From the NCBI GenBank assembly GCA_017623115.1, contig JAGAPT010000013.1:1-63536 (forward strand): a stretch of 63,536 nt of DNA. Reading direction: 5' to 3'. This DNA comes from Alistipes sp. (GTDB lineage: Bacteria; Bacteroidota; Bacteroidia; Bacteroidales; Rikenellaceae). Within the stretch, counting starts at the first letter, position 1, and every line of letters begins with the position of its first letter. This document shows positions 9,061-11,160 of this stretch, piece by piece. Position numbers and translations under genes: made by a program. Under the pieces are notes generated by a model that was not told the origin of the DNA, made no database searches, and worked only from the letters and a program-made list of their open reading frames with translations.

Positions 9061-10032
9061 TTATTTCTGTCTTCCCATCAGGCTCTCGGCATAGGCACGG
9101 AGCGAAGCGATACGCTCGGCAGGGGCATCGACTGCATCGAGTTGTGCCAGCGCACGCTCAAAGCGCAGGCCGATTTGCTGTTCGGTCAGGTGAGGAACAT
9201 CGAGCATGTCGTAGACCGCCTTGACACGCGCCACCTTCTCGGCATCGGTCAGCGTTGCATCGAGGTGCGTCGAGCGCAGCACTTCACGTTGTGCCTCATC
9301 GGCTCGGCTCATGGCCGTCACCATCAGGTAGGTCTTCTTACCCTCGAGGATATCCCCGCCAATCGCCTTTCCGAGTCGTTCGTCGCCATAGCTGTCGAGC
9401 AGGTCATCCTGCAACTGAAAAGCAAGCCCCAACTCGATGGCAAAGCGACGCAGCGCACGGCAATCCTCCTCCGAAGCTCCACCCAGCAGGGCTCCCATCA
9501 CCACAGCACCGGCCAGCAGCACCGAGGTCTTGAGCTCGATCATGTGCATATACTCGACCACCGAGACCTTCTGACGGTTCTCGAAATCCATGTCATATTG
9601 CTGTCCTTCGCACACCTCCAGCGCAGTCTGATTGAAGACCGACAGCACCTGCGGCAGGCGCGGGCTCTGCACGCGGCACAACAATTGATAGGCGACAATC
9701 ATCATCGCATCGCCCGACAAGATAGCTACATTCTCGCCCCACTTGGCATAGACCGACGGCTTGCCACGACGCAACAGGGCGTGGTCCATGATGTCGTCGT
9801 GCAGCAACGTGAAGTTGTGGAACATCTCCACAGCCGCGGCAGCCGGCAACGCCTGCTGTGTCTCCTCCGAGAAGAGGGCATGCGACAACAACAGCAACAC
9901 GGGGCGCAGGCGTTTTCCGCCTCCGGCCAGCGAGTAACTGATGGGGGTATAGAGCAACTCCGGCTCGGCAGGAAAGTCGGTTTGCGCCAGATAGTTCTCT
10001 ATCAAATCGAGGTAGTTATCTTGTGTCAGCAT
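9061..10032 (-). CDS. Short-chain polyprenyl diphosphate synthase
   Basis: This trans-prenyltransferase condenses isopentenyl diphosphate with allylic diphosphates. The 323-residue protein has both Asp-rich motifs: LLHDDIMDHALLRRGKPS (first DDxxD) and LQDDLLDSYGD (second). The aromatic Phe five residues before the first motif (FTLLHDD) is typical of enzymes that stop at short products (C15-C20), so farnesyl or geranylgeranyl diphosphate is likely. That is an inference; octaprenyl synthase is possible. I chose the ATG at 10032 over the TTG at 10038. It heads a likely operon with U32 and M24 genes, separated from them by repeat copy A. Confidence 0.9.
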   Translation of the reverse strand: MLTQDNYLDLIENYLAQTDFPAEPELLYTPISYSLAGGGKRLRPVLLLLSHALFSEETQQALPAAAAVEMFHNFTLLHDDIMDHALLRRGKPSVYAKWGENVAILSGDAMMIVAYQLLCRVQSPRLPQVLSVFNQTALEVCEGQQYDMDFENRQKVSVVEYMHMIELKTSVLLAGAVVMGALLGGASEEDCRALRRFAIELGLAFQLQDDLLDSYGDERLGKAIGGDILEGKKTYLMVTAMSRADEAQREVLRSTHLDATLTDAEKVARVKAVYDMLDVPHLTEQQIGLRFERALAQLDAVDAPAERIASLRAYAESLMGRQK

Positions 10033-10083
10033 ATCCAAAAAGCGTGATTAGATGGATTTTCTGTCCCAAAAATACAAAAAAAC

Positions 10084-10114
10084 TTTGTGACCACCGAATT
10101 TTGGCGTAACTTTG
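10084..10114 (+). promoter_or_regulatory. Promoter of the ACP-like membrane protein gene
   Basis: TTTG at 10084-10087, a 19-nt spacer and TAACTTTG at 10107-10114 match the Bacteroidetes sigma-ABfr consensus exactly in sequence and spacing. The predicted start point near 10121 leaves a leader of about 140 nt before the ATG at 10264. Confidence 0.8.
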
Positions 10115-10138
10115 AGCACCATAAAGTAACTTAATGCG

Positions 10139-10170
10139 ATTCGGCAGAGGAGGCTCATGCCCCGCCGAAT
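10139..10170 (+). other. Leader hairpin upstream of the ACP-like gene
   Basis: ATTCGGC (10139-10145) pairs perfectly with GCCGAAT (10164-10170), and inside the loop GGC-TCAT-GCC can form a second stem. It lies about 20 nt after the predicted transcription start and is followed by TTGTTTTA. It could be an attenuator, a weak terminator or a processing or protein-binding site; I do not recognise it as a known riboswitch. Confidence 0.45.
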
Positions 10171-10263
10171 TGTTTTAATGATTTGAGTGTTAACAAATTG
10201 GCATCCCAAGGCAAGGATATTGCCGAGCGGTGGGCATGTCGCATAAGCCAACACAACATAGGT

Positions 10264-11160
10264 ATGTTAAAGAGTCAATCACGTGTTTTAATCGCAGGTT
10301 TCGTTGCCATTGTGTTGGTAACCATCCTCTTCAAGGGCTTTTTGGGGTTACCCTATCTGCGTCTGCCCTTCGTAGGTGCCGTGGCCATCTTCTATGTGGG
10401 ATTCCTTCTCTACACGAGCGATTATCTTTCAGAAAGCGAAGCTACACGGTTGAACCGAAAGGACCCGGGCACCGTCCGCCGCTACAAGAAGGACTCCACC
10501 TACCTCTGCGCAGCGTGGCTCTCCATCCTGATTCTGCTCATTCCGACAACCGCCCTGCTTGTCACGATGTTGCTCCGTCAGCGCGAGTTGTACGAGGTAC
10601 CCGTGCTGATTCAGATTGCCATCACCTTCGGCGGATATATCTTTCTGCACCTCATCTCGTGGGCATTCGAAATCGGCCCTACCTACAGCATCGGCTATTC
10701 GGAGACCGAGCGCCGCGTCAACAGCATCAAGCGCCAACGTGAGGAGCAGCGTCACCTACGCGAGAAACGAATCCGCGAAGAGGCCGAATTTGTTGTCAAG
10801 CAGGCCGTTCTGGAGGTGCTCGGCGTTGCGGAGGCCGAGGTTACACCGAGTGCCGATATGGTCAACAATTTAGGATGCGATTGCTATGATTCTCAAGAGA
10901 TTCTCACTTTTTACGACACCTATTTAAGCAATACCTACCATATACAGAACCCCATCGAGCCACCCTACGGCACGGTTCAAGGGGAGCGTATGCGTCGCTA
11001 CGATACGATTCGCATGCGTTACTACTCCGCCCAAGAACGCGGAACGAATATACCGGATGCCAAAAATTGTTTCCATGAACAATTCTTGCAAATCTACCCG
11101 ACCATAGCTGATCAGTGCGAGTTCCTGAGCGGGCTCATTCACTATTATCGCAAAGACTAA
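10264..11160 (+). CDS. Membrane protein with degenerate acyl-carrier-like domain
   Basis: I do not recognise this 298-residue protein as a named family. Four hydrophobic stretches (about 8-26, 34-50, 81-103, 112-134) are followed by a charged helix (145-175, rich in Arg and Glu) and a soluble C-terminus. Residues 176-228 resemble an acyl carrier protein: VKQAVLEVLGV, then EVTPSADMVNNLG, then CDCYDSQEIL, which aligns with the ACP pattern ending in LGADSLDTVEL. The Ser that carries phosphopantetheine is Cys207 (D-C-Y-D in place of D-S-L-D), so normal loading is not expected. The ATG at 10264 is preferred; an in-frame TTG at 10183 would add 27 residues. It has its own promoter and a structured leader, and 29 nt separate it from the ROK kinase gene. 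Confidence 0.75.
   Translation: MLKSQSRVLIAGFVAIVLVTILFKGFLGLPYLRLPFVGAVAIFYVGFLLYTSDYLSESEATRLNRKDPGTVRRYKKDSTYLCAAWLSILILLIPTTALLVTMLLRQRELYEVPVLIQIAITFGGYIFLHLISWAFEIGPTYSIGYSETERRVNSIKRQREEQRHLREKRIREEAEFVVKQAVLEVLGVAEAEVTPSADMVNNLGCDCYDSQEILTFYDTYLSNTYHIQNPIEPPYGTVQGERMRRYDTIRMRYYSAQERGTNIPDAKNCFHEQFLQIYPTIADQCEFLSGLIHYYRKD

Follow-up and report, generated by a model that had tools for sequence, protein, structure and literature searches.

A four-helix membrane protein of Alistipes sp. with an acyl-carrier-like tail that lacks the carrier serine: a possible docking or decoy module

What might a bacterium do with an acyl carrier protein (ACP)-like domain that lacks the carrier serine and is joined to a membrane anchor? 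The question is raised by a 298-residue protein, here called P0001, encoded on contig JAGAPT010000013.1 of Alistipes sp. (GCA_017623115.1); the window is the whole stretch analyzed, positions 1 to 63,536 of this contig (63,536 nucleotides). The P0001 frame scores 0.19 bits per codon, the other forward frames −1.16 and −1.05 and the reverse-strand frames −0.12, −1.25 and −0.85. The reading that we favor, with a rough probability of 0.42, is that P0001 may be a fast-evolving protein of the inner membrane, specific to its lineage, whose ACP-like tail serves for docking rather than as a carrier.

The NCBIfam ACP model matches residues 175–214 of P0001 with an E value of 8.6e-6 over the whole library. 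A profile of 18 ACPs, kept by a motif and length filter from 36 submitted loci, gives 31.0 bits at residues 177–216, while shuffles of residues 144–298 reached at best 8.2 bits against it (5000 made, 2982 scored). The 31-bit score leans upward because the profile ACPs were fetched with P0001 itself and picked by motif, a selection bias from which the NCBIfam E value is free. ACPs in the PDB match within residues 171–220 at E values of 0.003 and above. In alignment A2, made of 21 of 48 viral ACPs and one further ACP (L063; L148 left out) that were picked by a motif holding these same residues, the columns L203, G204, D206, D209 and E212 are invariant, and P0001 keeps all of them. By these comparisons, the homology of residues 175–218 to ACPs goes beyond chance. 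A chance resemblance within an unrelated helical membrane protein would agree with a match of only ~40 residues and a Pfam PP-binding score below cut-off, but it sits so poorly with the library-wide NCBIfam E value and the distance between shuffled and observed scores that we consider it very improbable. Although significantly homologous over this segment, the tail falls outside the ACP family as judged by curated cut-offs and the missing serine, with PF00550 (PP-binding) at 12.5 of 20.8 bits for the whole protein and 15.3 for the tail alone, and NF002149 at 25.6 of 106 bits and 27.2, respectively. The earlier note on this DNA had drawn the ACP pattern across residues 176–228; similarity from about residue 175 stands, but the profile matches stop at 213–220, so the span to 228 is unsupported.

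Where ACPs have D-S-L, P0001 has D-C-Y at residues 206–208, and the phosphopantetheine serine is absent. Both alignments and the codons (TGC GAT TGC TAT GAT for residues 205–209) agree on the replacements already proposed in that note, serine by Cys207 and leucine by Tyr208. With the carrier serine changed to cysteine and followed by tyrosine, loading by the usual phosphopantetheinyl transferase is not expected, and we infer that loading has been lost and that the tail is no ordinary carrier. It would not be needed as one, since the same genome holds two ordinary ACP genes that keep the serine. One of these (L003, C33:41140-44277) lies directly before a gene that by eye resembles an AMP-dependent ligase, and the other (L002) is followed by what by eye looks like the start of a fabF-like gene. 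Alternatively, Cys207, together with Cys205, could itself work by taking an acyl, persulfide or redox mark, in which case the tail would be a redox switch or a carrier that needs no prosthetic group. The thiol stands exactly at the carrier place and a second one lies two residues earlier in a C-D-C sequence, but no tail-bearing homologue was found to show conservation of either cysteine, the protein has five cysteines and no partner enzyme was recognized adjacent to the gene; we regard such a role as improbable.

Hydropathy bears out the earlier description of P0001 as a membrane protein, with four hydrophobic segments (Table 1). Loop 50–85 contains 7 Lys and Arg and 5 Asp and Glu residues, the two other, short loops contain 0 and 2 Lys and Arg, and residues 141–175, after the fourth segment, contain 10 Lys and Arg and 8 Asp and Glu. 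From this charge pattern, the C-terminal part should be cytoplasmic. Residues 172–298 are acidic, with 20 Asp and Glu versus 10 Lys and Arg. In the predicted topology, the N terminus, the charged loop and the C-terminal part would all lie inside, and the four transmembrane (TM) helices would anchor the charged linker and the acidic, ACP-like domain on the cytoplasmic side of the membrane. The ACP-like surface would then bind an enzyme or regulator that normally recognizes ACP, holding that protein at, or off, the membrane. For an acidic domain that has lost its loading site and should lie in the cytoplasm, a surface for docking or decoy is the simplest functional interpretation, and we infer that docking is the most likely use of the tail. 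The more specific proposal that this serine-less domain on its four-helix anchor, encoded by a gene that came to lie behind a ROK-family kinase promoter, docks or decoys ACP-recognizing enzymes at the membrane is tentative and, as it stands, rather unlikely.

When ACPs are placed in its alignment, AlphaFold2 models the tail as an ACP-type fold plus an extra helix. Residues 219–298 are modeled as the rest of helix II, the extra helix (238–258) and two C-terminal helices (264–277 and 281–297), and a carrier protein is named in 44 of the 50 PDB matches listed for this model from an ACP-built alignment. The result is partly circular because ACPs stood in that alignment, and a complete ACP fold of the tail can only be suggested from the model. 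A profile of the C-terminal half of ACPs finds no match in the P0001 frame, and the candidate helix IV stretches TIADQCEFL and GTVQGERM score no better than shuffles.

The window contains three matches to the motif TTTG-N19-TAnnTTTG, which we take to be the Bacteroidota promoter consensus, versus 0.04 expected, and one of them precedes the P0001 gene. In five near relatives (L064-L068), which are 83.1–84.7% identical to the window over neighboring proteins, the polyprenyl synthetase and ROK genes adjoin, with 112–148 bp between matched stretches, and P0001 is absent from these loci (tblastn, E 1e-3). In four of them (L064, L065, L066 and L068), the motif ends 34 bp upstream of the ROK start; in L067, its spacer reads 20 by eye. 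Since the motif precedes the ROK gene in relatives that lack P0001, the P0001 gene has been inserted downstream of the old ROK promoter and upstream of the ROK gene itself, and the two genes are probably co-transcribed.

Among 180 genomes of the genus, its own included, the sole other genome with an orthologue is G124, where a four-TM protein of 164 residues is encoded at L087:6725-7219. This gene too lies directly before a ROK gene, its stop codon 16 bp upstream of the ROK start, and from position 10080 onward, 39 of the first 41 aligned bases, covering the promoter and the first leader bases, are identical. The shared promoter and leader start and the shared place before ROK make it most likely that the two genes derive from one insertion. 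Between the TM parts, we estimate dN at ~0.49 and dS at ~2.2 (near saturation), and for the first 200 ROK codons dN is 0.10 and dS 1.04; on these estimates, the TM part is constrained yet fast-evolving.

Several results weigh against a docking tail. The G124 protein ends after KRQL, soon after the start of the linker and without the ACP-like tail, and the ACP profile has no match in six frames of the G124 insert. The only orthologue found thus ends before the ACP-like part, so that the tail appears variable within a family of two rather than conserved, contrary to the conservation on which the earlier note would have relied; its membrane-tethered, serine-less ACP-like segment is favored by sequence and charge pattern and disfavored by conservation. 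A matrix of ACP helices III and IV (38 of 40 ACPs were long enough to use), applied to residues 217–298, gives a best window equaled by 39% of 5000 shuffles. The single-sequence model of the tail is poor (pLDDT 55.5, pTM 0.27), so the ACP topology put forward earlier is obtained only with the ACP-built alignment. Codon scores fall to 0.007 bits per codon in residues 219–298, compared with the value for the whole open reading frame (ORF) and 0.27–0.69 for nine neighboring genes. Finally, a general claim is weak because it would rest on one sequence in one genome, and for the same reason a sensor, docking or thiol role of the tail is unproven.

Much of this evidence would suit a relic, that is, an ACP-like piece that was picked up, or is being lost, and now has no role, with G124 showing that the tail is dispensable. 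Such an origin is in keeping with the early end of the G124 orthologue, with a recognizable part amounting to half an ACP, with the weak codon fit of residues 219–298 and with the absence of the gene in the five near relatives. The frame, however, is open to residue 298, and residues 177–216 retain both their profile score and the five invariant ACP residues, which long drift would erode. A frameshifted second half of an ACP was not found above chance in six frames of either the P0001 or the G124 insert. A tree of six neighboring proteins places the outgroup with a support of 45, and gain of the tail here is not separable from loss in G124. Because the only orthologue does without the tail and the codon fit is weak, the relic is nearly as good a reading as docking, and we consider it quite possible, if short of probable.

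Searches for further relatives of P0001 used overlapping genome sets, those for order, class and phylum being samples. In the first search, 46 of 60 relatives besides its own genome matched; among the matches listed, all fell within residues 163–227 and are ACP matches, in frames of 76–192 residues, one with an internal stop. Across the 180 genus genomes at E 1e-5, four matched: its own, G124 and two with ACP-region matches that contain stops (G061, G160). An alignment of the TM part matched 13 of the same genomes at E 0.1, namely its own, G124 and 11 partial matches (0.003–0.09, not counted), and residues 217–298 matched 9 of 180 at E 0.05, its own and eight at 0.009–0.05, the best of which spans stops (not counted). 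Among 393 genomes of the order at E 3e-6, the ACP part alone matched in four genomes of one genus besides its own. In 375 genomes of the class, the TM alignment at E 1e-3 found its own genome and a 44-position match (8e-4) in a 498-residue frame that was not counted. At phylum level, residues 171–298 matched 170 of 375 genomes at E 1e-3, its own included; among the matches listed, apart from its own, just two extend past residue 232 (G1124, G1225), and both cross stops. Among public genome contigs, the only match (L063) was set aside as an acpP gene flanked by fabG-like and ffh-like genes (identified by eye). No match came from viral contigs, plasmids or phages, apart from one plasmid match at E 9 when the threshold was E 10; PHROGs gave none below 0.08, and Rfam a single match of 18 of 38 bits (E 0.16). 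Among the matches listed from open-licence PMC literature, subscription papers being outside its scope, there was no membrane-anchored serine-less ACP. Within the genomes searched, the arrangement of a membrane part with a serine-less ACP-like tail thus appears in its own genome only.

Table 1. Positions of the P0001 gene, its parts and its neighbors in the window
Feature	Position	Strand	Basis
Polyprenyl synthetase gene, divergent neighbor	9061..10038	-	PF00348, 2.1e-76
Bacteroidota-type promoter motif TTTG-N19-TAnnTTTG	10084..10114	+	Motif count; directly before ROK gene in relatives
Leader between promoter and P0001 gene	10115..10263	+	Start conserved with G124
P0001, 298-residue membrane protein with ACP-like tail	10264..11160	+	ORF, codon score
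Part common to P0001 and G124, residues 1–150	10264..10713	+	69/150 identical, ungapped (46%)
Predicted TM1, residues 8–26	10285..10341	+	Hydropathy
Predicted TM2, residues 31–49	10354..10410	+	Hydropathy
Predicted TM3, residues 86–104	10519..10575	+	Hydropathy
Predicted TM4, residues 114–132	10603..10659	+	Hydropathy
Charged helical linker, residues 141–175	10684..10788	+	Charge counts; low-confidence structure model
ACP-like segment, residues 175–218 (helix I, loop, first half of helix II)	10786..10917	+	Profile matches, alignment
Cys207 codon TGC at carrier-serine place	10882..10884	+	Alignments, codons
Residues 219–298, without detected sequence similarity	10918..11157	+	Genus search, half profile, helix matrix, AlphaFold2
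Downstream ROK-family kinase gene, probably co-transcribed with P0001	11190..12188	+	PF00480, 5.5e-52

The leader folds with a z score of −1.97, which is not decisive; that of G124 has the same value, but the folds differ. By eye, 10112-10263 contains a terminator- or attenuator-like hairpin, ATTCGGC...GCCGAAT followed by TTGTTTT, which was not called by the terminator scan and is not conserved in G124. Between its polyprenyl synthetase and ROK genes, G124 has four further minus-strand genes (L087:2639-6091). One encodes a radical SAM/SPASM protein, scoring above cut-off (57.1 and 27.3 bits), and another a small protein that weakly matches CsgG (21.5 of 20.8 bits); by eye, the remaining two products look like a membrane protein and a secreted protein. 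This place may be a hot spot for insertions.

ACP acts as a hub, recognized through its shape and charge by many enzymes. If the docking reading is true, a membrane protein with a lost loading site and a partly kept recognition surface would act as an ACP mimic that tethers or misleads the lipid machinery. The P0001 gene also illustrates clearly how a gene can slip between an old promoter and the gene it served. P0001 resembles AcpP-type ACPs (NF002149/TIGR00517, PF00550) in helix I, the loop with VTP, LG.D, the acidic start of helix II and the modeled fold. It differs from them in the change of serine to cysteine and leucine to tyrosine, in being joined to four predicted TM helices, in the extra residues and extra modeled helix before the last two, and in an unrecognizable second half. 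DUF1493 (PF07377) is an ACP-like family without the carrier serine. With its profile run on the Alistipes genome, P0001 was unlisted at E 10, as it was with hmmscan at E 10, both tools using speed filters; the two ordinary ACPs of the genome were weakly listed, and none of 14 control genomes gave a match above cut-off. The G124 protein shares the orthologous TM part, the promoter and the place before ROK with P0001, but not the ACP-like tail. In the reported MmpL5–AcpM complex (PMC11633376), a membrane protein likewise keeps an ACP on its cytoplasmic side, but transporter and ACP are two separate proteins there, one bound to the other, whereas in P0001 the domain belongs to the same chain. P0001 is best called new as an ACP-like domain without the serine fused to a membrane anchor, the fold itself being known.
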